A stretch of DNA of 64,000 bases from Lentzea waywayandensis (GTDB lineage Bacteria; Actinomycetota; Actinomycetes; Mycobacteriales; Pseudonocardiaceae), in NCBI RefSeq assembly GCF_900115955.1, contig NZ_FOYL01000002.1:248001-312000 (forward strand). The letters run 5' to 3'. A program made the translations under genes and the position numbers. The notes beneath the pieces are model-generated. The model had not been told where the DNA came from, did no database searches, and worked only from the letters and a program-made list of their open reading frames with translations. This document shows, one piece after another, positions 24,963-62,858 of the stretch. How positions within the stretch are numbered: the stretch's first letter is position 1; each line of letters starts with the position of its first letter.

Positions 24963-25958
24963 ATGGACCGCGGTCAGCCCGACGAGACGACGGTACGAGC
25001 GGCGGTAGCACTGGCGGGACGAGCGCCGTCGGTGCACAACTCCCAGCCGTGGCGCTGGGAGGTCGGCGCACACAGCCTCCACCTGTACGCCGACCGCACA
25101 CGCGGCCTGCCCGCGACGGATCCGCTGGGCGCCGACCTGGTCATCAGCTGCGGGGCCGCGTTGCACCACCTGCGAGTCGGGCTCGCCGCACTCGGCTGGC
25201 GCGCGAAGGTCCACCGGCTGCCCAACCCGGCCCTGCCCGACCACCTCGCGGCGATCGAGTTCGAGTCGTCCGAGCCGAGGGAGCCGCACGTCGCGCTCGC
25301 GGCGTCGATTCCCCGCAGGCGCAGCGATCGCCGCGCGTTCTCCTCCTGGCCCGCTCCCGACGAGATCCTCCAGCAACTCGTGGCGATCGCCCGCTCCGAA
25401 GGGGTGGACGCCCACGTCGTCACCGGCAAGGCGCACGACGAACTCCTGATCGCCATCGGCAAGGCGGCCGCGATCCAGGAGGCCGATCCGGCCTACCAAG
25501 CCGAGATCCGGCAGTGGAGCGGCGTGTATCCCGGGGCGTCGGCGGGTGTTCCCGCGGCGAACATCCCGGCTGGGTCGCGGCAGTACGGCAACCTCACGAT
25601 GCGCGAGTTCGCGCCGGGATCGTTGCTGCAAGGTGGCCCCAGCCTGCTCGGCGAGGACGCGGGAACGCTCCTCGTGCTCAGCACGTCGTCCGACGACGAC
25701 CTGTCGCGCCTGCGGGCCGGCGAAGCGGCCAGCGCGGTGCTGCTGGAAGCCACCGCCGCGGGTCTGGCGACGTGCCCGCTCAGCCAGCCGCTGGAGATCG
25801 TGGAGACCAGGGACCTGGTGCGCGACGAGGTCCTCGGCGGCGCCTCCTGCCCGCAACTGGTGATCCGCGTCGGCTGGGCCGCGTTCAACTCCGACCCGTT
25901 GCCCGCCACGCCCCGCCGTCCCGTCATCGACCTTCTCCGCGACCAGGAGCAGAAGTGA
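24963..25958 (+). CDS. Acg-family nitroreductase-like flavoprotein
   Basis: The 331-aa product starts at ATG 24963, with GGAGGTGAG just upstream. It carries Acg hallmarks: [14 protein letters not shown] near residues 20-33, the [13 protein letters not shown]-type block, [18 protein letters not shown] near 60-77, [10 protein letters not shown] near 115, and the C-terminal LVIRVGWA with the PATPRRPV end. In Mycobacterium tuberculosis, Acg (Rv2032) and relatives are DosR-induced, bind FMN tightly and appear non-catalytic, possibly as flavin stores. It is the first gene after three DevR-type boxes and overlaps PEP synthase by GTGA. Confidence 0.9.
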
Positions 25959-28364: not shown

Positions 28365-29378
28365 ATGACCACCACCCGCGTTGCCATCAACGGTTTCGGC
28401 CGAATCGGCCGAGACGTCCTGCGCGCCGCTTTCGACCGGCGCGACACGGCGATCGAGATCGTCGCCGTCAACGACATCACCAGCCCGGAAACCCTGGCGC
28501 ACCTGCTCGCCTACGACTCGACGTACGGACCGTGGAGCAAGCACGTCTCCGTCGAACACGACACCCTCACCGTGGACGGTCACAGCATCCTGGTGACCGC
28601 GCAGCCGGACCCGCAGAACCTGAACTGGGACCAGCTCGGAGTCGACATCGTCATCGAGGCGTCGGGGCGGTTCCGCACCCGTGAGACCGCGGGCGTCCAC
28701 CTCGCACGCGGTGCGCGCAAGGTCATCATCACCGCTCCTGGCAAGGATGTCGACGCGACGATCGTCCTGGGCGTCAACGACGACGTCTACGACGCGAGCA
28801 AGCACCACATCATCTCGAACGCCTCCTGCACCACCAACTGCGCCGCCCCGATGGCCGCCGTGCTGAACGACGCGTTCGGCATCGTCGAGGGCCTGATGAC
28901 GACGATCCACAGCTACACCGGCGACCAGGCGTTGCTCGACCGGCCGCACAAGGACCTGCGCCGGGCCCGTTCCGCCGCGGTGAACATCATCCCGACCTCC
29001 ACCGGTGCCGCCCGCGCGATCGGGCAGGTGATCCCGGCGCTGGACGGCAAACTCGACGGCCTGGCCGTGCGGGTGCCCGTCGAGGACGGCTCGCTCACCG
29101 ATCTCACCGTGCGCCTGGCCGAGCAGGCGACCGCGGGACAGGTCAACCGCGCGTTCGCGGAAGCGGCCGAACGACACCTCAAGGGAATCCTGCGCTACAC
29201 CACGGATCCCGTCGTGTCGCGGGACATCATCGGCGATCCGGCGTCGTGCGTGTTCGACTCCTCGCTCACCAAGGTGCGGGGACACGTGGTGAAGGTGATG
29301 GGCTGGTACGACAACGAGTGGGGCTACGCCAACCGCACGCTGGACCTCACCGACCGCGTCGCGCGGACCATGCCGTGA
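28365..29378 (+). CDS. gap: Glyceraldehyde-3-phosphate dehydrogenase, type I
   Basis: The 337-aa product has an N-terminal Rossmann motif INGFGRIGRDVLRAAF (residues 8-23) and the catalytic loop SNASCTTNC with Cys155. TSTGAARAIG lies near 213 and the terminal WYDNEWGYANR motif near 315. The VNDI segment after the second strand suits NAD rather than NADP. It oxidises glyceraldehyde-3-phosphate in glycolysis. AGGAGGCACCC precedes ATG 28365, a strong site. A DevR-type box lies upstream, so this is probably the hypoxia-induced copy rather than the housekeeping gene. It overlaps the following cyclic-nucleotide-domain gene by GTGA. Confidence 0.94.
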   Translation: MTTTRVAINGFGRIGRDVLRAAFDRRDTAIEIVAVNDITSPETLAHLLAYDSTYGPWSKHVSVEHDTLTVDGHSILVTAQPDPQNLNWDQLGVDIVIEASGRFRTRETAGVHLARGARKVIITAPGKDVDATIVLGVNDDVYDASKHHIISNASCTTNCAAPMAAVLNDAFGIVEGLMTTIHSYTGDQALLDRPHKDLRRARSAAVNIIPTSTGAARAIGQVIPALDGKLDGLAVRVPVEDGSLTDLTVRLAEQATAGQVNRAFAEAAERHLKGILRYTTDPVVSRDIIGDPASCVFDSSLTKVRGHVVKVMGWYDNEWGYANRTLDLTDRVARTMP

Positions 29379-37959: not shown

Positions 37960-40536
37960 TCAGGTGGTGCGCAGGCGGCGCAGGAACGGGTCGGTGTGCT
38001 GGGCGGGCGCGACGCGTACGCGTGCGTCGACGACCACGCATCCCGTGTCCGTCAGCACCAGGGGGTTGATGTCGAGCTCGACGATCTCGGGCAGTGCTCC
38101 GGCCAGTTCGGCGACTCGGAGCAGGACTTCCCGGACGGCGTCCTCGTTGGTATCGGCGAGCACGTGGCCCGCGGTGCGGAAGCCGTGCAGCAGGTCGTCG
38201 GCGTCCGCTGTGGACAGTGGCGCGAGAGCCGCGGCGCGGTCGTCGAGCAGATCGGTGTCCACGCCGCCGAGGCCGGTGACCACGAGCGGTCCGAACTTCT
38301 CGTCGGTGACGACGCCGACCAGCAGTTCCCGGCCGCCAGACGCCATCGGCTGCACGAACACGCCGCGCAACCGGTCGCCGAACTTCTCCTGGAACGCGCG
38401 GAAGGCTTCCGCCACACCGCCCGCGTCGGTGACGCCGAGTTCCACGCCACCTCCCTTGCTCTTGTGCAGCAGGTCGTCGGCCACCGCTTTGAGTGCGACC
38501 GGAGCGTCGTAGGCCTGTTGCGCCGCCACCGCGTGCTCCTCGGTCGTCGCGAGCGTTCCGCCCAGCACGGGGAGCCCGAACGTGTTCAGCAGCGCCATCA
38601 CCTGGTCCGGAGGCAGCCAGCCCTCTTCCTTGGCCACGATGGCCTTCGCGGTGTCGAGGTCGATCCGGTTCAGGCGGGCGAACTCCCTCGGGCGGGCCAG
38701 CCAGTCCGCCCGCTCGACCAGTCGTGCCAGCGCCGCAGCGGCGCGGGCGGGTTCGGCGTAGCAGGGCACCTCACCCGCGAGCCGTTCGGTTTGGCCGGTG
38801 CGCACCGCGAGCACGGGTTTGCCTTCGACGTTGTGCACGCCGCCCGTGGGTTCGCCGAGTGCGGTCGGCACCGTCACGGTGATCACGGAGTCGACCGCGG
38901 GGTCCGCGCCGATGATGTCGAGGCAGCGGGCGAAGGTCTTCTCGTCGACGACCGCGGTGGTGTCGACCGGGTTCTGCAGACTGGCCGTCTGAGGAACGAG
39001 CTGCGCCAACGCCTTGCGGGTCTCCTCACCGAGTACGGCCATGTGCAGGCCTTGGCGTACACAGGCATCCGCGGCCAGCACGCCGAGTCCTCCGGCGTTG
39101 CTCAGCACCGCCACCGACCGTCCACCTGGGAGTGGCTGCCAGCTCAGGGCCATCACGGCGTCGGTCAGTTCCGGCACGCTGTCGACCGCGATCACGCCCG
39201 CCTGCCGGAACAGCGCGTCCCTGGTGACCGACGGCGTCGCGGTCGAGGCGGTGTGCGAGGCGGCGGCGCGCTGGCCGGCTTCGCTGGTGGCCGCGCGGAT
39301 GGCCAGCACCGGTTTGGTCGCGGCGACGCGGCGAGCGATGCGGGCGAACTTGCGCGGGTTGCCGAAGGACTCGAGGTACAGCGCGATGATCCGGGTGTCC
39401 TGGTCGTGCTCCCACCACATCATCAGGTCGTTGCTGCTGATGTCGAGCTTGTCGCCGGTGGAGACGAGGTTCGACAGTCCGAGACCGAGCCGGCGCAGTT
39501 CTTCCTGCACGCCGATCGCGATACCGCCGGACTGGGTGATCAGCCCGATGTGGCCGGCGAGCGTGCTGTGCGCCGCGAAGGTCGCGTTCATCCGCACACC
39601 GGGCGAACTGGTCGACACGCCGAGGCAGTTCGGCCCGACGAGCCGCATGCCGTGCGCACGAACCGCGTTCAGCAGCTCTTCCGCGTTGACACCGGACGAG
39701 ATGACGACCAAGGCCCGCACGCCGCGGCGACCGCATTCCTCGGCGACTGCGGGAACGGCCTTCGCCGGCACGCAGAGCACCGCCAGCTCGGGTGCCTCCG
39801 GCAGTTCGTTCACCGAGGCGTAGCAGTCGACCCCGGCCACGGACTTCGCGTGCGGGTTGACCGCGTACAGGTCGCCGGTGAAGTCGCCCTCGGCGAGGTT
39901 GTGCAGGACGGCGTGGCCCACCGAGTCCGGTGACCGTCCGGCGCCGATCACGGCGATCGAGGTGGGGCGCAGCACGTGGGTGAGGCTCGCGACGTCGGCG
40001 CGCGACTCCCGTTCGCTGATCACGTCGAGGTAGTGGTCGCCGGGCTCGAGGACGAGCTCGACGAAGATGATCTCGCCGTCGGGCACGATCGAGGTGACGA
40101 GGCCCATGCTGGTGAACACGCGCAGCATCCGGCCGTTGATCGTGAGCACGTCGGCGGTGAACCGCCGGACGCCGCGGCTGCGTGCCAGCGACGCCAGGTG
40201 CTCCAGCAGCAGCGTCCCGACGCCGTGGGCCTGCTCGGCGTGCGACACGACCAGCGCGACCTCCGCGAAGTCCGTCTCCCGCACCACCACGTAGCTCGCA
40301 GCCCCCAGCAGCCGGTCGTCGCGGTAGGCGCCGAGCACCACGTGGTGCGGGGAGTCCGGCGAGACCATCCGCTCGACGAAGTCCTCCAGCTGCCGCGGCG
40401 ACGTGCTGAAGAACCTGAGGTACTGGTCCTCGATCGGCAGTCCGCGGTGCAGTGCGAGCAGGGCCGAGACGTCGTCCGGCCCCAGTTCGCGCACCGTGAC
40501 GACCGAGCCGTCCGTCAGCAACGCCGCCGCGTTCAC
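37960..40536 (-). CDS. GNAT acetyltransferase fused to ADP-forming acyl-CoA synthetase
   Basis: The 858-aa product starts at GTG 40536, overlapping the upstream USP stop. A GNAT domain is at about residues 1-155 (VALVVSHAEQAHGVGTLLLE). It is followed by a CoA-binding domain (about 180-275, IAVIGAGRSPDSVGHAV), a succinyl-CoA-ligase-like domain (LITQSGGIAIGVQEE), and a C-terminal ATP-grasp (about 640-858). Protein acetyltransferases of the Pat type have this pair of modules but usually the reverse order and no catalytic His. Here the SHT motif retains His428, equivalent to the phospho-His of true ADP-forming synthetases. It may therefore make acetate + ATP from acetyl-CoA as well as acetylate proteins. 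Confidence 0.85.
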   Translation of the reverse strand: MNAAALLTDGSVVTVRELGPDDVSALLALHRGLPIEDQYLRFFSTSPRQLEDFVERMVSPDSPHHVVLGAYRDDRLLGAASYVVVRETDFAEVALVVSHAEQAHGVGTLLLEHLASLARSRGVRRFTADVLTINGRMLRVFTSMGLVTSIVPDGEIIFVELVLEPGDHYLDVISERESRADVASLTHVLRPTSIAVIGAGRSPDSVGHAVLHNLAEGDFTGDLYAVNPHAKSVAGVDCYASVNELPEAPELAVLCVPAKAVPAVAEECGRRGVRALVVISSGVNAEELLNAVRAHGMRLVGPNCLGVSTSSPGVRMNATFAAHSTLAGHIGLITQSGGIAIGVQEELRRLGLGLSNLVSTGDKLDISSNDLMMWWEHDQDTRIIALYLESFGNPRKFARIARRVAATKPVLAIRAATSEAGQRAAASHTASTATPSVTRDALFRQAGVIAVDSVPELTDAVMALSWQPLPGGRSVAVLSNAGGLGVLAADACVRQGLHMAVLGEETRKALAQLVPQTASLQNPVDTTAVVDEKTFARCLDIIGADPAVDSVITVTVPTALGEPTGGVHNVEGKPVLAVRTGQTERLAGEVPCYAEPARAAAALARLVERADWLARPREFARLNRIDLDTAKAIVAKEEGWLPPDQVMALLNTFGLPVLGGTLATTEEHAVAAQQAYDAPVALKAVADDLLHKSKGGGVELGVTDAGGVAEAFRAFQEKFGDRLRGVFVQPMASGGRELLVGVVTDEKFGPLVVTGLGGVDTDLLDDRAAALAPLSTADADDLLHGFRTAGHVLADTNEDAVREVLLRVAELAGALPEIVELDINPLVLTDTGCVVVDARVRVAPAQHTDPFLRRLRTT

Positions 40537-41036
40537 AGCAGCGGTCCGGGCGTCAGCGGTGCGGCCGCGGCAGCCAGCGTGTGCTCCTTCTTGACCTTCG
40601 GTTCGCGGATGACGACGACCGGGCACGCGGCGTGGTGCACGCAGTACGAGCTGACCGAGCCGAGGATGATCTCGGCCACCGTGTTGTGCCCGCGGCTGCC
40701 GACCACGAGCAGTTCCGCCTCCTCCGACGCCTTGGTGAGCGCGTCCCTGGGGTCGCCCTCGACCAGGATCCGGCGGATCTCCACGCCCTCGAACCCGTGC
40801 ACCGCACCGTCGAGCGCCTTCTGCGCCGCGTCTTTCATCGCCTGCGGGGACAACGCCATCAGGACCTCGGCGGGCACCGGCCCGATCATCCCGCCGTAGT
40901 CCGGGTGCCACGCCGTGATCACGTCGACCGGGCACCCGCGCCGGCGAGCGTCCTCCACGGCCCACCGCAACGCGGACTGTGCGGCCGGTGATCCGTCAAT
41001 ACCGACCACCACGGGCCGGGTCTCGTTCTCGCTCAT
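40533..41036 (-). CDS. Universal stress protein, single domain
   Basis: The 167-aa product has start motif VVVGIDGSPAAQSALRWAVEDARRR and a complete ATP-binding signature GSRGHNTVAEIILGSVS (about residues 119-135), followed by CPVVVIRE and an Ala/Pro-rich tail. It is the first gene of a six-gene minus-strand operon (usp, GNAT-acyl-CoA synthetase, usp, cbs, ATPase, ppk2). A perfect DevR-type box (41096-41109) predicts transcription from about 41060, 24 bases before ATG 41036 with GGAAGG. Confidence 0.92.
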   Translation of the reverse strand: MSENETRPVVVGIDGSPAAQSALRWAVEDARRRGCPVDVITAWHPDYGGMIGPVPAEVLMALSPQAMKDAAQKALDGAVHGFEGVEIRRILVEGDPRDALTKASEEAELLVVGSRGHNTVAEIILGSVSSYCVHHAACPVVVIREPKVKKEHTLAAAAAPLTPGPLL

Positions 41037-41095: not shown

Positions 41096-41109
41096 GGGAC
41101 CTTCGTCCC
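41096..41109 (-). promoter_or_regulatory. Perfect DevR/DosR-type box driving the six-gene operon
   Basis: GGGAC-CTTC-GTCCC, an exact match to the symmetric core GGGAC-N4-GTCCC. Its centre lies 66 bp before the USP start. Confidence 0.8.
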
Positions 41110-46297: not shown

Positions 46298-46358
46298 TGT
46301 GTGCCGTCTGCAGGCTGAGAGATCGTGATCCCGGAACGATCGAGAGAAGGTGGTTGCG

Positions 46359-47011
46359 GTGGTGTCGCGAGTCTTCCTGGTGGATGACCATGAGATCGTC
46401 CGGGTCGGCATCAGGGAGCTGCTCAGCGCCTCCCCCGACCTGGAGGTCGTCGGCGAGGCGGCCTCGGTGACCGAGGCGCTCACGATGGTCCCGGCCACCA
46501 ACCCCGACGTGGCGGTTCTGGACGTGCGGCTGCCCGACGGCAACGGCATCGAGCTGTGCCGCGAGCTGATGTCCCGGCTGCCAGACCTCAAATGCCTGAT
46601 GCTGACGTCGTTCACCGACGACGAGGCGTTGTTCGACGCGATCATGGCGGGCGCGTCCGGGTTCGTGCTCAAGCGCATCCTGGGCACCGACCTCACGACG
46701 GCGGTGAAGACCGTCGCGGCCGGACAGTCCCTTTTGGACGCCCGCTCGACCGCCGCGCTGCTCAACAGGATCCGGCGCGAACGTGAGCAGGGCGACCCCG
46801 TCCGCGCGCTCACCGAGCAGGAGCGGACCGTGTTCGACTACATCGGTGACGGCCTGACGAACCGGCAGATCGCGGAGAAGATGTTCCTCGCGGAGAAGAC
46901 CGTGAAGAACTACGTCTCGCACCTGCTCGCCAAACTCGGCCTCGAGCGCCGCACCCAGGCCGCCGTGCTGGCCTCGCAGTTGCGCAAGCCCACGCACGAC
47001 AACGAGACCGG

Positions 47012-47015
<4 letters not shown>
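46359..47015 (+). CDS. devR: Hypoxia/dormancy response regulator DevR (DosR), NarL/FixJ family
   Basis: The 218-aa product (GTG 46359; mycobacterial DevR is 217 aa) has the receiver start [20 protein letters not shown], acidic pocket Asp9-Asp10, and phospho-acceptor Asp55 in [13 protein letters not shown]. The conserved Lys lies in GFVLKRILG, and a LuxR HTH is at about residues 155-205 ([25 protein letters not shown]). It should be phosphorylated by DevS and bind GGGAC-N4-GTCCC sites through the island. The GTG frame also opens at 46350; 46359 gives the best spacing to AGAAGG and the family length. Its TAG stop lies inside the CTAG end of a foldback element. Confidence 0.93.
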
Positions 47016-48835
<1,820 letters not shown>

Positions 48836-48898: not shown

Positions 48899-48971
48899 TG
48901 GGACCGCTCAGCGGTTGCGCAGACAGTGGAGCGAACAAGAGTTCTACCGGCAACACGATGGGGTGACGGAC

Positions 48972-49970
48972 ATGGCCGAGGTGACCGCGGCGTTGGGGCT
49001 GGGGCCTGAGCAGGTCGAGCGAGTGCTGAAGGCGGCCTCGCTCGCGCCGTCCGTGCACAACACCCAGCCCTGGCTCTTCCGGGTGCGCCCCGACCGCATC
49101 GAGCTGCACCCGGACACCTCCCGCAGGCTGGAGGCGACCGACCCCGAGGACCGCGAGCTGCGGCTGTCGTGCGGTGCGGCGCTGTACAACATGCGGCTGG
49201 CGTTGCAGGACTTCGGTGTTCGACCGCTCGTGACGATGCTGCCCGGTCAGGACGCGCCCGGCGCGCTCGCGGTCGTGCGCAAGGGCGGCACGATCAAGCC
49301 CGACGGCGAGAACAGTGCGCTGCTCGACGCCGTTCCCCACCGGCGCACCAACCGCCATCCGTTCCACGAAGCCCACGTCGACCCTCGCCAGCGTCACTCC
49401 CTGGTGCGGGCGGCCGAGCTGGAACGTTCGTGGCTGCACGTGGTCACGACCCCTGACAGCCGAGCCCAGCTCAAGCGATTCGTCCAGCGGGCGCACCAGA
49501 TCCAGCTGGACGACGGGCGCGTGCAGGCGGAGCTGGCGGCCTTCACCGGCCACCGTCCGGACGCGGTCGACGGCGTGCCACCCGCGTCGGCGGGGCTCCG
49601 GCCGGAGCCGCAGGACGAGTGGACGTTCCGCGACTTCCACGGCCCTGAACGCCACCCCGGCAAGGACTACGAGTCCGACCCGCTCGTCGTGGTGCTCTGC
49701 TCGTTCTACGACGGGCCCCTCGGCGAACTTCAGGCAGGCCAGGCACTCCAACGCGTGCTGCTCACCGCGACCACGCACGGGCTGTCCGCGTCGTTCCTGT
49801 CGCAGCCGGTCGAGGTGCGGATGGTTCGCGAGGAACTGCGGCGCTCACTCGGCGGGATGCTCGTCCCGCAGACCGTGCTGCGCATCGGGTTCAGCACACC
49901 GGTCCCGGCCACGCCGAGGCGCCAGGTGGCCGAACTCCTGATGGACTCCAAGGACCGCGCCGGATGCTAG
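48972..49970 (+). CDS. Acg-family nitroreductase-like flavoprotein
   Basis: The 332-aa product has LAPSVHNTQPWLFRV near residues 26-40 and RLSCGAALYNMRLALQDFGVRP near 71-92. PHRRTNRHPF lies near 124 and VPQTVLRIGFSTPVPATPRRQV near 298-319 closes the family pattern. It is the full-length Acg type found in DosR regulons. ATG 48972 follows GGGGTGACGG; GTG 48963 is an alternative. The TAG stop lies in the CTAG end of foldback repeat B. The gene is divergent from devS. Confidence 0.9.
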   Translation: MAEVTAALGLGPEQVERVLKAASLAPSVHNTQPWLFRVRPDRIELHPDTSRRLEATDPEDRELRLSCGAALYNMRLALQDFGVRPLVTMLPGQDAPGALAVVRKGGTIKPDGENSALLDAVPHRRTNRHPFHEAHVDPRQRHSLVRAAELERSWLHVVTTPDSRAQLKRFVQRAHQIQLDDGRVQAELAAFTGHRPDAVDGVPPASAGLRPEPQDEWTFRDFHGPERHPGKDYESDPLVVVLCSFYDGPLGELQAGQALQRVLLTATTHGLSASFLSQPVEVRMVREELRRSLGGMLVPQTVLRIGFSTPVPATPRRQVAELLMDSKDRAGC

Positions 49971-50128: not shown

Positions 50129-50142
50129 GGGACTTTGGTCCC
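50129..50142 (+). promoter_or_regulatory. Perfect DevR/DosR-type box
   Basis: GGGAC-TTTG-GTCCC, an exact core match, 13 bases beyond foldback repeat B. A centre near -42 places transcription start near 50178, which argues against ATG 50174 as the start of the following gene. Confidence 0.8.
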
Positions 50143-51476: not shown

Positions 51477-51512
51477 ATCTCGACCGTAGGTCCGCCGCAC
51501 GTGGCAGCAGGA

Positions 51513-51526
51513 GGTCCTTAGGTCCT
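51513..51526 (-). promoter_or_regulatory. DevR/DosR-type box (variant) upstream of the flavodoxin gene
   Basis: On the minus strand AGGAC-CTAA-GGACC, the same variant as 24832-24845. The centre is 43-44 bases before the flavodoxin ATG. Confidence 0.55.
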
Positions 51527-51535
51527 CCGGCGTCG

Positions 51536-51549
51536 GGGACCAGGGGCTC
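51536..51549 (+). promoter_or_regulatory. DevR/DosR-type box upstream of the fermentation operon
   Basis: GGGAC-CAGG-GGCTC. A centre near -42 gives transcription at about 51585, 25 bases before ATG 51610, with GAGGAGGAATCGCG in the leader. Confidence 0.65.
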
Positions 51550-51609
51550 TGCGCGGCGCCCGCCGACCCGAGAAGTCTGGGATCGACGAACCGACGAGGA
51601 GGAATCGCG

Positions 51610-52647
51610 ATGAAGGCGCTGGTCTACCACGGTCCTGGCAAGCGCGTGTGGGAAGAGGTTCCCCGGCCGGAGATCGAGGAACCCACCGACGCGATCGTCC
51701 GCGTCACCGCGGTCACGATCTGCGGCACGGACCTGCACATCCTCAAGGGCGACGTGCCCGAGGTCGAGCCCGGCCGGATCCTCGGCCACGAGGCGGTCGG
51801 CGTCGTGGAGCAGGTCGGCGCCTCGGTCACCGGTGTGAAACCGGGCGACCGGGTGCTCATCTCGTGCATCACGTCCTGTGGCCGCTGCGAGTACTGCCGC
51901 GTCGGCAGCTACGGCCAGTGCCTCGGCGGTGGTGGCTGGATCCTCGGCCACACGACCGACGGCGTGCAGGCCGAGTACGTGCGCGTGCCGTTCGCCGACA
52001 CCTCCACGCACCTGCTGCCCAACGACGTCACCGACACCGCCGCGGTCGCGCTCGCGGACATCCTGCCCACCTCCTACGAGGTCGGTGTCCTCAATGGACG
52101 GATCAAGCCCGCCGACACCGTGGTGATCGTCGGCGCGGGGCCGATCGGACTCGCCGCGATCCAGACCGCGCAGCTCTACAGCCCCAGCCACATCGTCGCG
52201 GTCGACCTGGCGACGTCCCGGCTCGACGCCGCGAAGCAGTTCGGCGCGGACGTCACCGCGGGCACCGCCGAAGAAGCCGAACGCGTCGTCGGCGAGCTGA
52301 CCGGCGGACTTGGCGCGCACGTCGCGATCGAGGCGGTCGGTGTGCCGGAGACCTTCGAGCTGTGCACGAAGCTCGTGCGGCCCGGCGGGCACGTCGCCAA
52401 CGTCGGCGTGCACGGCAAGCCCGCGACGCTGCACCTGGAAAGCCTCTGGATCCGCAACGTCACCATCACCACCGGCCTGGTCGACACGAGCTCGACGCCC
52501 ACCCTGCTGCGCATGGTCGCGGCGGGCCGGATCGACGGCGAGCGGTTCATCACGCACCGGTTCGCACTCGACGAGATGGAGCAGGCGTACGAGGTGTTCG
52601 AGAACGCCGGCGACACCGGCGCGCTCAAGGTCGTGCTGACGCGATGA
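51610..52647 (+). CDS. Zinc-dependent medium-chain alcohol dehydrogenase
   Basis: The 345-aa product has the catalytic zinc ligand in TICGTDLH (Cys38), GHEAVG near residues 60-65, the structural zinc motif C-x2-C-x2-C-x7-C ([15 protein letters not shown], about 92-106), and the NAD-fold [15 protein letters not shown] near 176-190. Within this operon its likely job is to re-oxidise NADH by reducing an aldehyde, though no acetaldehyde dehydrogenase is encoded nearby. GAGGAGGAATCGCG before ATG 51610 is a strong ribosome site. It is the first gene of the seven-gene operon and overlaps pflB by ATGA. Confidence 0.92.
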
Positions 52648-54860
52648 CTGCGACCGCCGAGCGCACGACCACCCACGAGATCGACGTGCGCGGTTTCATC
52701 CAGGCCAACTACACGCCGTACGACGGCGACGCGACGTTCCTGTCCGGTCCGACACCGCGCACAACAGCGTTGTGGCACCGGTTGACGGAGATGTTCGTCG
52801 ACGAGCGCGCCCGCGGGATCCACGACGTCGACCCGAACACACCGTCGTCGATCACCGCGCACGCTCCGGGCTACATCGACCGGGACCACGAGATCATCGT
52901 GGGGTTGCAGACCGACGCGCCGCTCAAGCGCGCGATCATGCCCACCGGCGGCCTGCGGATGGTCGAGACGAGCCTCGCGACCTACGGCTACCAGCTCGAC
53001 CCGAGCGTCCGGGACATCTTCACCAAGTACCGCAAGACGCACAACGACGGCGTGTTCGACGTCTACACCGCCGAGATTCTCAGGGCCCGCAAGGCAGGAA
53101 TCATCACCGGCCTCCCGGACGCCTATGGACGAGGCCGGATCATCGGTGACTACCGGCGGGTTCCGCTCTACGGCGTGGACCGCCTCGTCACGGCCAAGAA
53201 GGCCGAACGGGCGGCGCTGGACGAGTCGATGTCCACAGAGGACGTCATCAGGGACCGGGAGGAGCTCGCCGAGCAGGTCCGGGCGCTGGAGGAACTGCGC
53301 GGCATGGCCGCGTCCTACGGCTACGACATCTCCGGTCCGGCCCGCAACGGCCGTGAAGCCGTGCAGTGGCTGTACTTCGCCTATCTCGCCGCGGTGAAGG
53401 AGCAGAACGGCGCAGCGATGTCGCTGGGTCGCACGTCCACCTTCCTGGACGTGTACCTGCAACGTGACCTCGACGAAGGCGTGCTGACCGAACGCGAGGC
53501 GCAGGAGCTCGTCGACGACCTGGTCATCAAGCTGCGGATCGTGCGCTTCCTGCGCACACCGGAGTACGACCAGCTGTTCTCCGGCGACCCGACCTGGGTC
53601 ACCGAGTCCATCGGCGGCATGGGCGACGACGGACGGCCGCTGGTGACGCGGACGAGCTTCCGGTTCCTGCAGACGCTCTACAACCTGGGCCCCGCACCGG
53701 AACCGAACCTGACCGTGCTGTGGTCGCCGCGTCTGCCCGAAGGCTTCAAACGCTTCTGTGCCAAGGTCTCCATCGACACCAGCTCGATCCAGTACGAGAA
53801 CGACGACCTGATCCGGCCGCGGTTCAGCGACGACACGGCGATCGCGTGCTGCGTGTCGGCCATGAAGGTCGGCGAGCAGATGCAGCTGTTCGGCGCGCGG
53901 GTCAACCTCGCCAAGGCACTCCTGTACGCGATCAACGGCGGCCGCGACGAGATCAGCGGCGTCCAGGTGGCTCCGGCGTTCCCGCCGATCGCCTCCGACC
54001 ACCTCGACCACGAAGAGGTGCGGGCGGCGTTCGACCGGATGACCGACTGGCTCGCGAAGACCTACGTCGAGGCGCTCAACGTCATCCACTACATGCACGA
54101 CAAGTACGCCTACGAACGCATCGAGATGGCGTTGCACGACCATCCGGTCCAACGGTTGCTCGGCTGCGGCATCGCCGGCCTGTCGGTGGTCGCGGACAGC
54201 CTGTCCGCGATCAGATACGCCCGCGTCCGCGTGATCCGCGACGACACCGGCCTCGCGGTCGACTACCTCGTGGAGGGCGACTTCCCGAAGTACGGCAACA
54301 ACGACGACCGCGCCGACGCGATCGCCGTCGAGCTGGTGGAGAGCTTCATGCGCAAGGTGCGGCAGTACCCCGCCCACCGCGGCGCCGTGCACACGCAGTC
54401 GGTGCTCACCATCACCTCGAACGTCGTCTACGGCAAGCACACCGGCAACACCCCGGACGGCCGCCGTGCCGGTGAACCGTTCGCACCCGGCGCCAACCCG
54501 ATGAACGGCCGGGACCGGCACGGGCTCGTCGCCGCGGCGTTGTCGGTGGCCAAACTTCCCTACGACCAGGCGCAGGACGGGATCTCGCTGACCGCGAGCA
54601 TCACGCCGGCAGGACTCGGACGCACCGAGGACGAGCAGGTGACCAACCTCGTCGGCGTGCTCGACGCCTACACCGACGCGGGTGGGTTCCATCTGAACGC
54701 CAACGTGCTCAACCGCGAAACCCTGCTCGACGCCATGGCACACCCGGAGAACCATCCGCAGCTGACGATCCGCGTCTCCGGGTACGCGGTGAACTTCGTC
54801 CGGCTCACGCCCGAGCAGCAGCGGGACGTCATCAACCGCACGTTCCACGAGTCGCTGTGA
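52644..54860 (+). CDS. pflB: Pyruvate formate-lyase (formate C-acetyltransferase)
   Basis: The 738-aa product has the catalytic Cys402-Cys403 pair in [12 protein letters not shown], equal to Cys418-Cys419 of the E. coli enzyme. The glycyl-radical residue is Gly713 in RVSGYAVNF near the C-terminus. Full-length agreement from [16 protein letters not shown] onward marks it as true PflB rather than a diol dehydratase. It splits pyruvate + CoA into acetyl-CoA + formate and works only when anaerobic, since O2 destroys the radical. It is unusual in an aerobic actinomycete. It overlaps both adh (ATGA) and pflA (GTGA). Confidence 0.95.
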
Positions 54861-55585
54861 CCACCGGATCAGTCCACTCGTGGGACGTCGCCACCGCGGT
54901 CGACGGACCGGGCACCCGCTTCGTGCTGTTCCTGAGCGGGTGCCCGCTGCGGTGCCTGTACTGCCACAACCCGGACACCTGGCACATGCGTGACGGTCAC
55001 CGCATGACCGTCGACGAGGTCATGGTCGAGGTCGCGAAGTATCAGCGGTTCATCGAGGTCGCCGGCGGCGGGCTGACGATCAGCGGCGGAGAACCGCTGC
55101 TACAGCCGGACTTCACCGCCGAAGTCCTCCACCGCGCCAAGCAGCTCGGCCTGCACACCGCGCTGGACACGTCCGGTTTCCTCGGCGCACGGGCGTCCGA
55201 GGAACTTCTCACCGACACCGACCTGGTCCTGCTGGACATCAAGTCCTGGGACCCGGTCATCTACCGGCACGTCACCGGCGGCGAGGTCGCACCGACGCTG
55301 GAGTTCGCCCGCCGGCTGTCCGCGCTGCACAAGCCGATGTGGATCAGGTTCGTCCTCGTGCCCGGCCACACCGACGCCGAGGACAACGTCGCCGGCATCG
55401 CGTCCTTCGTCAGCACCCTGGACGCGGTCGAACGTGTCGAAGTGCTGCCGTTCCACAAACTCGGCGCCCCCAAGTACGCCGCGCTCGGCATCCCGTTCCC
55501 GCTGGCCGACGTCCCTTCCCCCGACACCGACCTCGTGCGGCGAGTGCGCGACCAGTTCGCCGGCTGCGGTGTCCCCGTCCACTGA
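54857..55585 (+). CDS. pflA: Pyruvate formate-lyase activating enzyme (radical SAM)
   Basis: The 242-aa product has the radical-SAM cluster motif Cys29-x3-Cys33-x2-Cys36 ([13 protein letters not shown]), the SAM-binding [14 protein letters not shown] near residues 69-82, and [15 protein letters not shown] near 126-140, as in the E. coli enzyme (246 aa). It abstracts hydrogen from Gly713 of PflB to switch it on and needs reduced flavodoxin as electron donor, which the divergent flavodoxin (51476) could supply. The start GTG 54857 overlaps the pflB stop. Confidence 0.95.
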
Positions 55586-55614
55586 CCGCACCAAACCCGA
55601 ATGAGGAGCGCGAG

Positions 55615-57945
55615 ATGTCGAACGCCGACCTGGAACTCGTCGACGCGTACTGGCGAGCCGCCAACTACCTGTCGGCCGGCCAGATCTACCTGATGGACAA
55701 CCCGCTGCTGACCGAACCGCTGGCGCCGGAGCACATCAAGCCCCGTCTGCTGGGCCACTGGGGCACCACGCCGGGCCTGAACTTCATCTACGCGCACCTC
55801 AACCGGATCATCCGGGAGCGCGACCTCGACATGATGTTCGTGACCGGCCCCGGCCACGGCGGCCCCGCGTTGCTGGCCAACACGTGGCTGGAAGGCACCT
55901 ACAGCGAGACGTACCCGAACGTGCCGCGCGACGCCGTAGGCATGCAGAAGCTCTTCCGGCAGTTCTCCTTCCCCGGTGGCGTGCCGAGTCACGTGGCGCC
56001 CGAGGTGCCCGGCTCCATCCACGAAGGTGGTGAGCTGGGCTATTCGCTGGCGCACGCGTTCGGCGCGGCGTTCGACAACCCCGGTCTGATCGTCGCGTGC
56101 GTCGTCGGTGACGGCGAGGCCGAGACCGGGCCGCTCGCGGCCAGCTGGCACGCCAACAAGTTCCTCAACCCGAAGAGCGACGGGGCGGTGCTGCCGATCC
56201 TGCACCTCAACGGGTACAAGATCGCCAACCCGAGCCTGCTCTCGCGGATCCCGCACGACGAGCTGGATGCGTTGCTGCGCGGCTACGGCTACACGCCGTT
56301 CTACGTCCAGGGCGACGAACCCAAGGCGATGCACGCCCGCATGGCGGAGGTGCTCGACCAGATCGTGGACGAGATCCACCGCGTCAAGGCCTCGGAGGAC
56401 CGGCCGCGCTGGCCGATGATCGTGCTGCGCAGTCCCAAGGGCTGGACCGGTCCGTCCGAAGTGGACGGCGTGCCGGTCGAGAACACCTGGCGGGCACACC
56501 AGGTGCCGCTGGCAGGCGTGCGCGACAACCCGGACCACCTGCGGCAGCTGGAGACCTGGCTGCGGAGCTACCGGCCGGCCGAGCTCTTCGACGACAACGG
56601 AGCGCCACGCCCAGAGCTCGCCGAGCTGGTACCCGCTGGTGATCACCGGATGGGCGCGACCCCGCACGCCAACGGCGGACTGTTGTTGCGCGAGCTGAAG
56701 ATGCCGGGCATCCGCGCGCACGCGGCGGAGGTCGTGAAGCACGGCACCACGCACTCGGAACCGACCAGGGTGCTCGGCCGGATGCTGCGCGACATCATCA
56801 CGCTCAACGCCGACGCCCGTTCGTTCCGGATCTTCGGGCCGGACGAGACGGCGTCCAACCGGCTCGACGCCGTGTACGAGGTGACCGGAAAGCAGTGGCA
56901 GGCCGAGACTCTGCCGGTCGACGAGCACCTGGTCCACGACGGCCGGGTCGTCGAGGTGCTGTCCGAGCACCTGTGCCAGGGCATGCTGGAGGGCTATCTG
57001 CTCACGGGCAGGCACGGGTTGTTCAACTGCTACGAGGCGTTCATCCACATCATCGACTCGATGTTCAACCAGCACGCCAAGTGGCTCAAGACGCACAAGA
57101 AGCTGGAGTGGCGCAGGCCCGTTGCGTCGCTGAACTACCTGCTCAGCTCGCACGTGTGGCGCCAGGACCACAACGGATTCTCCCATCAGGACCCCGGCTT
57201 CATCGACCACGTGATGAACAAGAAGGCCGAGGTCGTCCGCGTCTACCTGCCGCCGGACACCAACACCCTGCTCTCCGTCGCGGACCACTGCCTGCGCAGC
57301 AAGGACTACGTCAACGTCATCGTGGCCGGCAAGAACGAGACGCCGGACTGGCTCGACGTGGACGAGGCGATCCTGCACTGCACCCGTGGCGCCGGTATCT
57401 GGGAGTGGGCGAGCAACGACGACAGCATCGAGGAGCCGGACGTCGTGCTGGCGTGTGCCGGCGACGCCCCGACCGTCGAGGTGCTCGCCGCGACGAAGCT
57501 CCTGCGCGAACACCTGCCGTCACTGCGAATCCGGGTCGTCAACGTGGTGGACCTGATGCGCCTGCAACCGGACACCGAGCACCCGCACGGCATGCCGGAC
57601 CGCGAGTTCGACGCGTTGTTCACCGCCGACAAGCCCGTCATCTTCGCCTACCACGGCTACCCGTGGCTGATCCACCGCCTGACCTACCGCCGCACCAACC
57701 ACCACAACCTGCACGTCCGCGGCTACAAGGAAGAAGGCACGACCACCACCCCGTTCGACATGCTGGTGCTCAACGACATGGACCGCTACCGGCTGGTGAT
57801 CGACGTCGTCGACCGCGTGCCAGGACTCGGGCCCAAGGCGGCCCGGCTCCGGCAGCACATGCAGGACCAGCGCACGCGTCACCACAACTGGATCCGCGAG
57901 CACGGCGAGGACATGCCCGAGATCCGTGACTGGACCTGGCAGTGA
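55615..57945 (+). CDS. xfp: Phosphoketolase (xylulose-5-P / fructose-6-P)
   Basis: The 776-aa product shows family hallmarks: the opening [40 protein letters not shown] near residues 78-95, the ThDP motif [22 protein letters not shown] near 166-187, [10 protein letters not shown] near 280, and C-terminal [13 protein letters not shown] and [17 protein letters not shown]. It cleaves xylulose-5-phosphate (and often fructose-6-phosphate) with phosphate to acetyl-phosphate, giving AckA its substrate directly. ATG 55615 has GAGGAGCGCGAG. It is 29 bases after pflA and overlaps ackA by GTGA. Confidence 0.95.
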
Positions 57946-59048
57946 ACGTTCTCGTCGTGAACGCGGGCTCCTCCAGTCTGAAGCTCCGCGTGCTCGGCGA
58001 GGACGACGTGGTTCTCGCCGGGACCGACGTCGAACGGTGGTCGGGTGGCGACGAAACCGGCCCGCTGGAGGATTTCCTGAGCGGCGCGCCGTCCGTGGAC
58101 GCGGTCGGCCACCGCGTCGTGCACGGCGGCTCTGCCTTCACCGGTGCCACCGCGATCGACGACGACGTGCGCGCCAGAATCGAGGCACTCACGGGGCTGG
58201 CGCCCCTGCATCAACCCCGTGCGCTCGCCGGCATCGACGCGGCGAGGCGACTGCTGCCCGATCTGCCGCAGGTCGCGTGTTTCGACACCGCCTTCCACAC
58301 CACGATGCCCGCAGCCGCCACGACCTACGCCATACCCGCCGCGTGGCGTCACAAGTGGGAGCTGCGCAGGTACGGGTTCCACGGGCTGTCACACGCTTAC
58401 GCGTCCCGGCAGGCGGCCGCGTTGGCGGGCAGGCCCGGCGCTCGGGTGGTGACCTGCCACCTGGGCTCCGGGGCGTCGCTCGCCGCTGTCGCGAACGGAC
58501 GTTCGGTCGACACGACGATGGGCTTCACCCCGTTGGCGGGCCTGGTGATGGCGACCCGAAGCGGTGACGTCGATCCTGGTCTGCTGGTGTGGCTGCAACG
58601 CGCCGGACTGACGCTGGACGAACTCGAGGACGGCCTGGAACACCACTCCGGGCTCGCCGGCCTGTCCGAGGTCGGCGGTGACCTGCGGGACGTGCGCAAG
58701 GCCGCCGAGAACGGCGACGAGCACGCGGTCCTCGCGCTACAGGTGTACGTGCATCGGTTGCGGCAGAGCATCGCCGCCATGACGGCGTCGCTGGGCGGCA
58801 TCGACCTGCTCGTGTTCACCGGCGGCGTCGGCGAGCACGACGCCACGTTGCGGGCGGACACCGCTGCCGGGCTGGCTTTCCTCGGTGTCAGCCTGGACGG
58901 AGGACGCAACGCCGAAGTCGTGCGGGACGGCCGCATCAGCGCGAGCGGCTCGGCTGTCGCGGTGTGGGTCGTCGAAGCGCGGGAGGACGTGGAGATCGCC
59001 ACGCGGACCCGCGCACTCGTGCACGAACCGAGTTGGAGGAGGCGATGA
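57942..59048 (+). CDS. ackA: Acetate kinase
   Basis: The 368-aa product starts [19 protein letters not shown], the acetate kinase signature. It has [13 protein letters not shown] near residues 55-67, the catalytic [10 protein letters not shown] near 108-117, [12 protein letters not shown] near 142-153, [20 protein letters not shown] near 171-190, and [13 protein letters not shown] near 288-300. It makes ATP + acetate from ADP + acetyl-phosphate. Paired with phosphoketolase it gives substrate-level ATP without Pta. GTG 57942 overlaps the xfp stop. Confidence 0.95.
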
Positions 59049-59926
59049 CCGTGACCAGGCCGGTGGTCGTGGGACTGGACGGATCGAAGTCCGCGACGCA
59101 TGCGGTGCGATGGGCCGCGGAGGAGGCCGCCCGGCGCAAGACCGGGCTCGTGATCACGCACTCGTGCGTGCTGGTTCCAGCGCGCACGCTCGACGTGATC
59201 GCGCCGGCCGAGTCCTATTCGGACGGTGTTCTCGAGGAAGGCCGGCAATGGCTCGCCGAAGCGGCGGACGCAGCCGGGAAAGCAGCCCCCGGGATCGATG
59301 TGAAGATCGAACTGGCAGCCGGCGACGCGGCTGAGCAACTCGTCGGCCGATCCGCGTCGGCCGGCCTTCTGGTGCTGGGCTCACACGGCCGGGGAGGATT
59401 CGCCGGCCTGCTCGCGGGTTCGACCGCGGTCGCCGTGACGACGCACGCGCACTGCCCCGTCGTCGTGGTTCGCAACACCGGCGCGGATCCGTCGCCGGAC
59501 GCTCCTGTCGTTGTGGGACTGGACGGATCGCCGGCCAGCGACGCGGCTCTGGACTTCGCGCTCGACGCTGCCGCTCTGCGCAGCGTGGCCCTGCACGCGG
59601 TGCGGACGTGGTGGGACATCACCGCCGAGACCGCGTGGCAACGCGGGCTGACAGCGACGAACCTCGCGTCGATCGAGGCCGCGGAACACCGGCTGCTGGC
59701 CGAACAGGTCGCCGGTCCTTCAGCCGCACGTCCCGATGTGCCCGTGCGGCAGTTCCTCACTCGCGACCGCCCCGCGCACACCTTGGTCGAGCAGTCGGCG
59801 CACGCGCGGCTGATCGTGGTCGGCACCCGAGGACGCGGCGGCTTCCGCGGTCTGCTGCTCGGGTCGACCAGCCAGGCTTTGATTCGCCACGCGCATTGCC
59901 CGGTCAGCGTGGTTCCGTTGGCATGA
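59045..59926 (+). CDS. Universal stress protein, tandem domains
   Basis: The 293-aa product has two complete USP domains: ATP loops GSHGRGGFAGLLAGSTA (about residues 116-132) and GTRGRGGFRGLLLGSTS (about 260-276). It is the closest relative in the window to the tandem USP at 43774-44649. ATG 59045 overlaps the ackA stop (ATGA), so it is translated as part of the fermentation operon, and it may tie ATP status to that pathway. Confidence 0.93.
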   Translation: MTVTRPVVVGLDGSKSATHAVRWAAEEAARRKTGLVITHSCVLVPARTLDVIAPAESYSDGVLEEGRQWLAEAADAAGKAAPGIDVKIELAAGDAAEQLVGRSASAGLLVLGSHGRGGFAGLLAGSTAVAVTTHAHCPVVVVRNTGADPSPDAPVVVGLDGSPASDAALDFALDAAALRSVALHAVRTWWDITAETAWQRGLTATNLASIEAAEHRLLAEQVAGPSAARPDVPVRQFLTRDRPAHTLVEQSAHARLIVVGTRGRGGFRGLLLGSTSQALIRHAHCPVSVVPLA

Positions 59927-60546
59927 AGGTGATTTCAGGGATGAGAACCGAACTGGCCGCGCGCGAAATCTGGCAGTCGTGGTTCCGCTGGACGACAGCG
60001 GGAGAGTTCGCGGGCTTCCTCGCGCCGGCGCTCGTGGGTGCGCTCACCTCATCACCGCAGCTGCTCGTCCTGGCAGGAGTGATCGAGGGCGCCGTGCTCG
60101 GCGCGGCGCAAGCCGTGGTGCTGCGGCGTGTGGACCACGCGCCGCAGGCACGCAGCTGGATCGGCGCCACCGCTCTGGCAGCGGGATTCGCCTGGGCGGT
60201 GGCGATGCTGGCGGTGCACAACGGCGAGCGGCTGAACACACTTCCCCTCGTTGCCGTGCTGCCCATCGCCACGGTGGCCGGCGCCGGAGTGCTGCTGTCG
60301 CTGGGAACCGCGCAGTGGTACCTCCTCCGCCACCACTTCCCCGGTGCTCATCTGTGGATCTGGGCCAACGCCCTGGCCTGGGGTGCCGGCCTCCTGGTGT
60401 TCACCGCCGTCACCACTCCCCTGTGGCAACCAGGTCAGTCTCCCGCACTCATCGCACTCATCGGGGCCTTCGGCGGACTGCTCATGGCGTCCACGATGGC
60501 GGCCATCACGGGCTCGGCGCTGATCCGGCTCACGAGGATGACGTAG
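59923..60546 (+). CDS. Multi-helix membrane protein ending the fermentation operon
   Basis: The 207-aa product has about six hydrophobic segments (residues 25-45, 48-66, 83-102, 107-130, 142-165, 172-195) with short loops. I do not recognise a family. It is too short and lacks the motifs of formate/nitrite (FNT) channels, although a product exporter would fit the operon. The ATG overlaps the USP stop by ATGA, so it is the seventh co-translated gene. An in-frame ATG at 59941 is a possible later start. Confidence 0.75.
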   Translation: MKVISGMRTELAAREIWQSWFRWTTAGEFAGFLAPALVGALTSSPQLLVLAGVIEGAVLGAAQAVVLRRVDHAPQARSWIGATALAAGFAWAVAMLAVHNGERLNTLPLVAVLPIATVAGAGVLLSLGTAQWYLLRHHFPGAHLWIWANALAWGAGLLVFTAVTTPLWQPGQSPALIALIGAFGGLLMASTMAAITGSALIRLTRMT

Positions 60547-60600: not shown

Positions 60601-60614
60601 GGGACGAAAGTCCT
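60601..60614 (+). promoter_or_regulatory. DevR/DosR-type box upstream of the flavohaemoprotein gene
   Basis: GGGAC-GAAA-GTCCT, nine of ten core bases. The centre is about 144 bp before GTG 60752. A further small inverted repeat, GTGTTC-G-GAACAC (60674-60686), lies between. Confidence 0.65.
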
Positions 60615-60751: not shown

Positions 60752-61912
60752 GTGCTTTCCGCTGCTTCGGCCGCCGTGGTCCGCGCGACCCTGCCCGTCG
60801 TCCGAGACCACGCCACCGAGATCACCGCCGAGTTCTACCCGTCGATGTTCGCCGCGCACCCCGAACTGCTGAACCTGTTCAACCGCGGCAACCAGGCCAG
60901 CGGCAAGCAGCAGATCGCACTGGCCGCCGCGGTGATCGCCTACGCCCAGCACCTCCTCGACGGGACGCCGTTCGGCCCGATCGCGGAACGCATCGCCCAC
61001 AAGCACGTCTCGCTCGGGGTGCGGCCCGACCAGTACCCGATCGTCGGGAAGCACCTCATCGGCGCCGTCGCCACCGTGCTCGGTGACGCCGTCACTCCTG
61101 AGGTCGCCGCGGCCTGGGACGAGGTCTACTGGCTGTTCGCGGTCTCGCTGATCGCCGCCGAGGCACGTCTGTTCCAGACCGCGGGCGTCACACCCGAGAC
61201 GCTGTGGCGTCCCTGGCGGGTGGCGAAGCGCGACGAGCAGGCGGCCGACACGGTGTCCTTCACCCTCCTGCCCGATGACGGCGGTCCGGTTCCGGCGTTC
61301 GAGCCGGGCCAGTACGTGTCCGTCGCGGTCGACCTGCCGGACGGTGGCCGGCAGCCGCGCCAGTACTCCCTGTCGCAGGCACCCGGCCGCGGCGAGCTGC
61401 GCATCACCGTGCGGCGAGTTCGCGGCGAGGACGGCGCTCCGGACGGTGCGGTGTCGAACTTCCTGCACGACCACGTCCACGCCGATGACACCGTGCTGGT
61501 CGGTCCGCCCGCCGGCGAGGTGACCCTCGAACCCGGCGACCGGCCCGTGCTGCTGATCAGTGCGGGCATCGGCATCACGCCGATGTTGTCGATGCTCGAC
61601 CACATCGGTGCCACGCAACCGACGCGGACGGTCGTCGCCGCGCACGCCGAGAGCTCGGCCGTCCGGCACGCACACCGCGCCGAGTACGCCCGCCTCGGAC
61701 AGCTGACCTGGTACGAGAACGGCGACGAGGGCGGGCGGCCGGGCCGGATCGAGGTGGACGCGATCCCGTTGCCGCCTGGGGCGGTCGCCTACCTGTGCGG
61801 TCCGATCACCTTCATGCGCGACGTGCGCGCGGGGCTCCTTCGTCGCGGGATGCGCGCCGACGACATCAGGTACGAGGTGTTCGGCCCCGGCATGCTCGAG
61901 AATCGGGCGTGA
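60752..61912 (+). CDS. Flavohaemoprotein (nitric oxide dioxygenase)
   Basis: The 386-aa product has a globin domain at about residues 1-135, with the B10 Tyr in EFYPSMF (Tyr29) and the proximal His in IAHKHVSLGVRPDQYPIVG near 85. An FAD domain (RQYSLSQAPGRGELRITV, about 205-222) and an NAD domain (LISAGIGITPMLSMLDH, about 268-284) follow, and the protein ends YEVFGPGM. It converts NO + O2 to nitrate using NADH and defends DevS and respiration from NO. GTG 60752 has GGAGAACACC. A DevR-type box lies upstream. Confidence 0.92.
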   Translation: MLSAASAAVVRATLPVVRDHATEITAEFYPSMFAAHPELLNLFNRGNQASGKQQIALAAAVIAYAQHLLDGTPFGPIAERIAHKHVSLGVRPDQYPIVGKHLIGAVATVLGDAVTPEVAAAWDEVYWLFAVSLIAAEARLFQTAGVTPETLWRPWRVAKRDEQAADTVSFTLLPDDGGPVPAFEPGQYVSVAVDLPDGGRQPRQYSLSQAPGRGELRITVRRVRGEDGAPDGAVSNFLHDHVHADDTVLVGPPAGEVTLEPGDRPVLLISAGIGITPMLSMLDHIGATQPTRTVVAAHAESSAVRHAHRAEYARLGQLTWYENGDEGGRPGRIEVDAIPLPPGAVAYLCGPITFMRDVRAGLLRRGMRADDIRYEVFGPGMLENRA

Positions 61913-62779: not shown

Positions 62780-62845
62780 GAGCGATCTACCTCCAGGCTG
62801 TATTGAAGTCTGTCTATGCAGTGTTGCGCGAAGCCCGTAGTGCCG

Positions 62846-62855: not shown

Positions 62856-62858
62856 AAT

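Follow-up and report, generated by a model that had tools for sequence, protein, structure and literature searches.

A pyruvate formate-lyase and phosphoketolase operon inside a DevR/DosR-type island of Lentzea waywayandensis: a candidate fermentative block of a hypoxia regulon

A 64,000-nucleotide stretch of the Lentzea waywayandensis genome (contig NZ_FOYL01000002.1, positions 248,001 to 312,000; hereafter, the window) contains a seven-gene array, adh-pflB-pflA-xfp-ackA-usp-membrane protein gene, and the evidence supports the view that pyruvate formate-lyase (PFL) and phosphoketolase genes of functional appearance are combined here in one operon inside a DevR/DevS island. We consider it probable that this operon provides a DevR/DosR-type hypoxia regulon with its fermentative energy block, in an actinomycete whose group is otherwise aerobic; the aerobic, filamentous lifestyle of the organism itself is presumed from its kin.

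The operon (51610-60546) consists of seven co-directional open reading frames (ORFs) on the plus strand with junction spacings of -4, -4, +29, -4, -4 and -4 bases, that is, five of the six junctions are 4-base overlaps and a 29-base gap separates pflA from xfp (Table 1). The first-pass annotation, made from the DNA sequence alone, had proposed this gene set and this tight packing, and both were borne out by the ORFs, translations and family matches, with the qualification that the usp/membrane protein gene overlap is valid only with the start at 59923; the gene caller favoured 59941. PflB is full-length and scores 1148 bits with TIGR01255 (cut-off 994); its Cys-Cys pair (402-403) and its C-terminal glycyl-radical motif RVSGYA (at 710) are retained in an alignment spanning residues 11-737 with 1h16, which we take to be the PFL of Escherichia coli. 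PflA scores 313 with TIGR02493 (cut-off 232) and carries the cluster motif CX3CX2C at 29-36. By family score and motifs alike, the two proteins belong to the PFL1 and PFL-activating-enzyme families, and the expectation that the Cys pair, the glycyl-radical Gly and the radical-SAM motif are intact, so that the PFL looks functional, holds for the predicted proteins. Xfp matches all three XFP domains and is thus assigned as a phosphoketolase; its best match among solved relatives is 8io8 (1157 bits), and the XFPK entries 3ahc (908 bits; presumably bifidobacterial) and 3ai7 (899 bits) fall about 250 bits below it, so that Xfp is not closest to the bifidobacterial type. The identity of 3ai7 as a bifidobacterial XFPK is taken from PMC5315409. 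AckA scores 364 with TIGR00016 (cut-off 293) and contains the NAGSSS motif, as befits an acetate kinase, and is about 30 residues shorter than 2iir near the N-terminus. The enzyme families of the operon are clear at the sequence level; homologs of the membrane-type protein are found in DevR-type islands of the genus. The genome that contains the window (G000; 10.15 Mb, 99.6% complete) yields a single PFL-like match and a single XFP match.

The operon is located in a DevR/DosR-type island of about 38 kb (approximately 23.4 to 61.9 kb of the window) that encodes CBS proteins, nitroreductase-like proteins, phosphoenolpyruvate (PEP) synthase, glyceraldehyde-3-phosphate dehydrogenase (GAPDH), a cyclic nucleotide monophosphate (cNMP)-binding protein, flavodoxins, an S30AE protein of the ribosome-hibernation type, PPK2, a P-type ATPase, universal stress proteins (USPs), proteins of the Acg and Rv1733c families, a flavohaemoprotein-like protein and, linked to each other as expected of a DevR/DosR regulon, DevR and a DevS-type kinase. 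The first GAF domain of DevS has 2vzw and a number of DevS GAF entries among its matches; its HPPM motif is retained, and the His of this motif presumably holds the haem. A search with the DosR consensus (11 defined positions; PMC2947987) detected 11 boxes with at most one mismatch in the window, nine of which are intergenic, all nine within 24.8-60.7 kb, compared with 9.8% of the window being intergenic (binomial P 4e-8). The matrix derived from the Streptomyces coelicolor sites of OsdR, the DevR orthologue, separates less well than the DosR consensus because 12 of its 32 window matches with a score of at least 6 are intergenic, as against 9 of 11.

Upstream of adh, we read a group of degenerate sites as an array of weak predicted DevR sites, short of proof. 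The presence of at least two two-mismatch sites is expected in 4.9% of 1000 dinucleotide shuffles of this region (P 0.049) and is seen in 1.5% of 481 window tiles. In an alignment of four promoters (the window adh, both adh promoters of the congener G290 and the pflB promoter of G182; mean column identity 70%), the blocks at 51512 and 51536 are conserved in all four sequences, with 17 consecutive invariant columns in the former and 12 of 15 in the latter. A promoter and terminator scan yielded 0 promoters (0.5 in shuffles) and 1 terminator (3.6 in shuffles). The predicted link between the operon and DevR draws on the island context, the promoter conservation and the statistics over relatives.

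Table 1. The operon and other features of the window
Feature	Coordinates	Strand	Remarks
adh	51610..52647	+	zinc-dependent medium-chain alcohol dehydrogenase; no equivalog over cut-off (NCBIfam/Pfam)
pflB	52644..54860	+	pyruvate formate-lyase; Cys402-Cys403, RVSGYA
pflA	54857..55585	+	PFL-activating radical-SAM enzyme; CX3CX2C
xfp	55615..57945	+	phosphoketolase; not closest to bifidobacterial type
ackA	57942..59048	+	acetate kinase
usp	59045..59926	+	double universal stress protein
membrane-type protein gene	59923..60546	+	no Pfam or NCBIfam match; start possibly 59941
operon promoter region	51477..51609	+	two degenerate DevR-like sites with 2 mismatches (51512, 51536) and a weaker one with 3 mismatches (51481)
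devR	46350..47015	+	response regulator with DevR 3c3w as its best PDB match; perfect DevR box at 46284
devS	47159..48832	-	histidine kinase with two GAF domains, the first DevS-like; HPPM motif
Acg (Rv3131) family FMN oxidoreductase-like protein	48963..49970	+	
perfect DevR box	50129..50142	.	upstream of usp 50201
DevR box, 1 mismatch	60601..60614	.	upstream of flavohaemoprotein gene
flavohaemoprotein-like protein	60752..61912	+	NF009805 361 bits, below cut-off 432; next island unit
GNAT and ADP-forming acyl-CoA synthetase	37960..40536	-	N-terminal GNAT; both expected catalytic His retained
usp	40533..41036	-	presumably in one operon with 37960-40536, which it overlaps from the upstream side
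perfect DevR box	41096..41109	.	67 nt upstream of usp 40533
PEP synthase / pyruvate dikinase family	25955..28201	+	
glyceraldehyde-3-phosphate dehydrogenase	28365..29378	+	DevR box (1 mismatch) at 28229

The association of PFL with such islands was analyzed in two surveys, of the family (297 genomes) and of the class (394 genomes), both of which are samples, and in a scan of named genomes from which the 80 best of 585 or more stretches were retained, among which near kin of the window may be missing. Flanks of up to 20 kb were fetched for 29 of the other 30 family genomes with a full-length PFL (G104 was omitted), and the class flanks cover 40 of the matches of the class survey. At least two types of island markers are present within 9 kb of PFL in 25 of the 29 other family loci, in 16 of the 40 class-survey loci and in 9 of the 27 named loci of the class listed, and in none of the 53 other named loci listed (one of which, L074, is from a Coriobacteriia metagenome-assembled genome) or the 20 random 20-kb regions (hand-picked positions, one per PFL-bearing genome); loci with short flanks (e.g., L007, L009, L225, L226 and L233) were counted as lacking an island. 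For the family loci against the random regions, the Fisher test yields P 4e-10. Among 20 hand-picked XFP loci, 17 have at least two marker types. Boxes with at most one mismatch are located upstream of 30 of 58 pfl units, compared with 6.4% of 2320 random windows, and upstream of 18 of 29 xfp genes, compared with 6.2% of 1160 random windows; the pfl units include 17 of 27 in the named set and 13 of 29 in the family set. None of 150 palindromically permuted motifs reaches the observed counts (permuted maxima 8, 11 and 16 for the named, family and xfp sets, respectively); the 58 loci include two non-actinomycetes (L026 and L028), both omitted from the permutation test.

In a PFL tree built by a quick method (150 rows), a 64-row actinomycete clade (SH-aLRT 98) contains 50 of the 51 island rows, and members of Streptomycetaceae, Streptosporangiaceae, Micromonosporaceae and the family of the window carry island PFLs. 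Two other clades hold Streptomycetaceae PFLs without the island. A different PFL setting, the second one noted, is that of the non-island Streptomyces-type clades, whose PFLs (L012, L015, L029, L246-L249, L254, L256 and L258) share their fetched locus with a formate-dehydrogenase-like gene that is 32-34% identical to the one of L303.

Within the family, 43 of the 297 genomes have some PFL match and 31 have a full-length PFL; in the genus, a full-length PFL is found in 9 of 24 genomes. The pflA gene follows pflB in all 29 other family loci, adh directly precedes pflB in 11, and an XFP match lies within 9 kb of PFL in 8, in 5 of which ackA adjoins xfp. The gene-order search that the first-pass annotation had proposed recovered adh-pflB-pflA-xfp-ackA on one strand in a single one of these 29 loci, L117 of G290, so that the exact adh-pfl-xfp-ackA fusion is represented in 2 of the 30 family PFL loci examined. 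The characterization of the module as unusual thus applies to the fusion but not to PFL in DevR-type islands, which recurs across families. Other arrangements include a co-directional xfp-usp-nitroreductase-usp-adh-pflB-pflA array in G096, a divergent xfp/pfl pair in G293, and devR located after pflB-pflA in the named Sphaerisporangium and S. globisporus loci. Between pflA and xfp of L117 (contig C197), a gene for a WS/DGAT-like acyltransferase is located on the opposite strand (L117:11893-13068), and genes resembling it (30-32%) are found in L116, L118, L175 and L180.

XFP is present in 204 of the 297 family genomes, and is found in all 31 genomes with a full-length PFL versus 173 of the 266 others (P 6e-6, with no correction for kinship); the latter include 12 genomes whose PFL matches are weak or fragmentary. 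In all 20 XFP flanks, hand-picked from the list of the 204 genomes, ackA is next to xfp. Several loci of the genus (L175, L176, L177, L179 and L182) share an XFP backbone, devR-devS-Acg-(usp)-(flavodoxin)-xfp-ackA, after which usp, a membrane protein gene or a flavohaemoprotein gene is frequently located; not every gene is present in each, and PFL is absent there (G286 and G007 have PFL elsewhere). Because this backbone carries xfp-ackA without PFL, we take xfp-ackA to be the older island resident and adh-pflBA to be a patchy cassette. A second island of G290 (L180, contig C192) contains adh, a stop-ended 5' remnant of pflB (L180:8736-9000), a one-mismatch box and xfp-ackA-usp-membrane protein gene; judging by this layout, in an assembly that is 92% complete, consists of 260 contigs and is possibly a strain mixture, the locus is a deletion scar, where the adh-pfl-xfp order once existed and pflBA was lost. 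From the gene orders compared, the seven-gene form in the window unites two recurrent modules in a fusion that is itself rare.

No match to the Pta family was detected in G000, with the control search positive in 10 of 14 genomes, so that this genome gives no sign of the phosphotransacetylase of a PFL-Pta-AckA mixed-acid route. Because no Pta was found, PFL and AckA do not appear to form one route, and AckA can only serve Xfp. The first-pass annotation had presented PFL and phosphoketolase-acetate kinase as one module; this is true of the operon but not of the metabolic route. An alternative exit for acetyl-CoA is suggested by the protein encoded at 37960-40536, which shares aligned SHT and LHKS motifs with ADP-forming CoA ligases for 4-hydroxybutyrate and 3-hydroxypropionate; in the protein acetyltransferase 9it0, by contrast, the SHT motif is lacking. 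The His residues of the SHT and HK motifs are retained in all 8 aligned rows, including the window; which of them is catalytic is our assumption. This protein, encoded 11 kb from the operon behind a perfect DevR box, may convert acetyl-CoA to acetate with the formation of ATP.

Elsewhere on the contig of the operon, at a distance of about 250 kb, a hydrogenase operon and hsp20 diverge around a one-mismatch DevR-type box (L300:4532; the locus is L300:4037-9402, at about 42-47 kb of contig C24 of G000). The NiFe large subunit has both CxxC pairs, we assign the enzyme to group 3b on the assumption that its subunit make-up is diagnostic, and similar genes are located near PFL or XFP in L001, L006 and L192; the boxed hydrogenase may take electrons. 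Stand-alone cNMP-binding domain proteins are encoded both after GAPDH in the window (29375-29824) and inside the hydrogenase operon (L300:5675-6136), and are possibly small sensors of the regulon. Several other candidate partners were rejected. For nitrate respiration, the genome contains no NarG over the cut-off (two weak matches). For formate hydrogenlyase as a formate sink, a six-gene complex-I-like cluster (L302:9308-16221; C24, about 19-26 kb) was not taken as a NiFe hydrogenase because its large subunit is devoid of any CxxC pair; this cluster, which we take to resemble the Rv0081-Rv0088 locus, is located between ArsR-type regulators, with a WS/DGAT gene and a boxed usp nearby. Several formate-dehydrogenase-alpha-like matches are found in the genome, the best with 648 bits against a cut-off of 666. 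For the ethanol route, the two acylating acetaldehyde dehydrogenases over the cut-off are encoded elsewhere in the genome, outside the island. Just past the flavohaemoprotein gene of the window, a methyltransferase and an ArsR-family regulator form a pair (61946-63212), perhaps of the arsenic type.

Taken as a fermentative block, the operon would function as follows. The haem kinase DevS would sense falling oxygen, and phosphorylated DevR would switch on the island. Phosphoketolase would split pentose (perhaps hexose) phosphate to yield acetyl phosphate, from which AckA would produce acetate and ATP, and PFL would cleave pyruvate to acetyl-CoA and formate; neither the Xfp-AckA nor the PFL step would make NADH, which would suit cells unable to re-oxidise it. 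Given the lack of a Pta match in the genome, the two arms would be separate, and the acetyl-CoA from PFL would either enter synthesis or yield acetate and ATP through the ADP-forming acyl-CoA synthetase. The remaining NADH would be disposed of by the alcohol dehydrogenase or by the DevR-boxed, group-3b-like hydrogenase. In a much broader version, the DevR regulon of aerobic actinomycetes in several families would encode a complete Pta-free fermentation, with Xfp-AckA and PFL-ADP-forming acyl-CoA synthetase as parallel ATP arms, an H2 sink through the boxed group-3b-like hydrogenase, and acetyl phosphate from Xfp fed back on DevR as a flux signal; as a whole, this version seems to us rather unlikely.

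Several observations weigh against the assignment of a fermentative, DevR-controlled role. The first-pass annotation had called the operon DevR-linked, which is upheld by the devR/devS island with its nine intergenic boxes, while the predicted box of the operon itself is degenerate: the best two sites upstream of adh (51512 and 51536) each miss 2 of the 11 consensus positions, and the operon's own boxes reach a maximum of 3.6 of 22.4 with the S. coelicolor OsdR matrix. Upstream of pfl in general, this matrix shows modest enrichment (a score of at least 6 in 19 of 58 units versus 12.3% of controls). Two island markers are lacking at 24 of the 40 class-survey loci and 18 of the 27 named class loci, some on short flanks; many Streptomyces PFLs sit outside islands; and the relatives are non-independent samples. 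The synthetase encoded at 37960-40536 scores 403 bits, below the TIGR02717 cut-off of 567, and the N-terminal-GNAT domain order of such synthetases is classed under lysine acetyltransferases (PMC6456759). The activase of Streptomyces lividans is listed as an N-terminal fragment and putative pseudogene (PMC6302529). Finally, no match to a FocA-type formate channel was detected in the genome, and formate export by FocA was rejected for this reason.

The lack of FocA and Pta matches would also be compatible with biosynthetic supply, whereby formate from PFL feeds one-carbon metabolism, acetyl-CoA feeds lipid stores and Xfp-AckA serves as a carbon-saving bypass, with no net fermentation. The WS/DGAT-like gene between pflA and xfp in the congener and the one beside a boxed usp in the window genome fit this explanation, but the adjacency of ackA and xfp at all 20 picked loci and 5 of the 8 near family PFLs points to acetate and ATP, and the boxed hydrogenase fits energy metabolism; we consider biosynthetic supply unlikely. 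A role primarily in signalling, with Xfp as the main source of acetyl phosphate that phosphorylates DevR and acetylates proteins, and with the operon serving less as a fuel route than as a feed-forward loop, appears very unlikely: although no Pta was found, acetyl phosphate phosphorylated OsdR in vitro (PMC5069765) and at least two island marker types occur at 17 of the 20 picked XFP loci, ackA of the same operon would drain acetyl phosphate, and pflBA would have no place in such a loop. That the operon is a relic or laterally acquired cargo of little function, next to a stress island by chance, likewise appears very unlikely because the patchiness of adh-pflBA (full-length PFL in 9 of 24 genus genomes) and the pflB remnant between adh and xfp in the congener are offset by the full catalytic motifs, the 4-base overlaps, the conserved promoter blocks and the presence of island PFLs in several families.

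The fermentative block proposed here shares features with several known systems. The island encodes relatives of DevR (3c3w), the DevS GAF domain, Acg/Rv3131 and Rv1733c of Mycobacterium tuberculosis, of which Acg and Rv1733c are, we assume, members of the DosR/DevR dormancy regulon of that bacterium; unlike that regulon, the island includes PFL and phosphoketolase. In a 2014 study by Berney, DosR-dependent fermentative H2 production was reportedly observed in Mycobacterium smegmatis, a case in which an obligate aerobe ferments under the control of a DosR-type regulon and to which the boxed group-3b-like hydrogenase of the window genome would correspond; in contrast, the window has acetate- and formate-forming enzymes in the DevR island itself. 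The enzyme set of the bifidobacterial bifid shunt includes PFL and alcohol dehydrogenase. In that shunt, as in the window, phosphoketolase occurs with acetate kinase (PMC5315409), but the window Xfp is closer to 8io8 than to the XFPK entries 3ahc and 3ai7.

A further parallel is the OsdR (DevR) regulon of S. coelicolor and S. lividans, which has the same type of regulator and box (PMC5069765) and shares USP, alcohol dehydrogenase, pyruvate phosphate dikinase and nitroreductase genes with the island (PMC5069765; PMC6302529). The Streptomyces island carries respiratory nitrate reductase genes, unlike the window genome with no NarG over the cut-off, and in the window xfp-ackA is fused to adh-pflBA. 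The first-pass annotation knew of no description of such a system, and the literature covered (titles, beginnings of abstracts and passages, with subscription papers mostly outside) yielded no DevR-linked PFL-phosphoketolase module. The link between OsdR and PFL, however, is already present in an S. lividans table, where a putative PFL (SCO0206) and the activase fragment are listed among OsdR-correlated genes, at 0 to 74 transcripts per million (PMC6302529). PFL is named twice in that paper, both times in the table; the two 'pyruvate' passages of PMC5069765 concern the dikinase; and 'phosphoketolase' has no occurrence in the main texts of either paper.

To our knowledge, there is no settled account of how mycelial actinomycetes that are considered obligate aerobes survive anoxia. 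The DevR-linked PFL clade that extends over several families, together with xfp-ackA in the same kind of island, offers a testable answer, namely that such actinomycetes ferment. If this is the case, the scope of the DosR/DevR dormancy regulon would include substrate-level ATP formation in addition to respiration and stress proteins. Given that relatives in several families share parts of the system, our observations suggest that bacteria of an aerobic group may ferment to survive without air.

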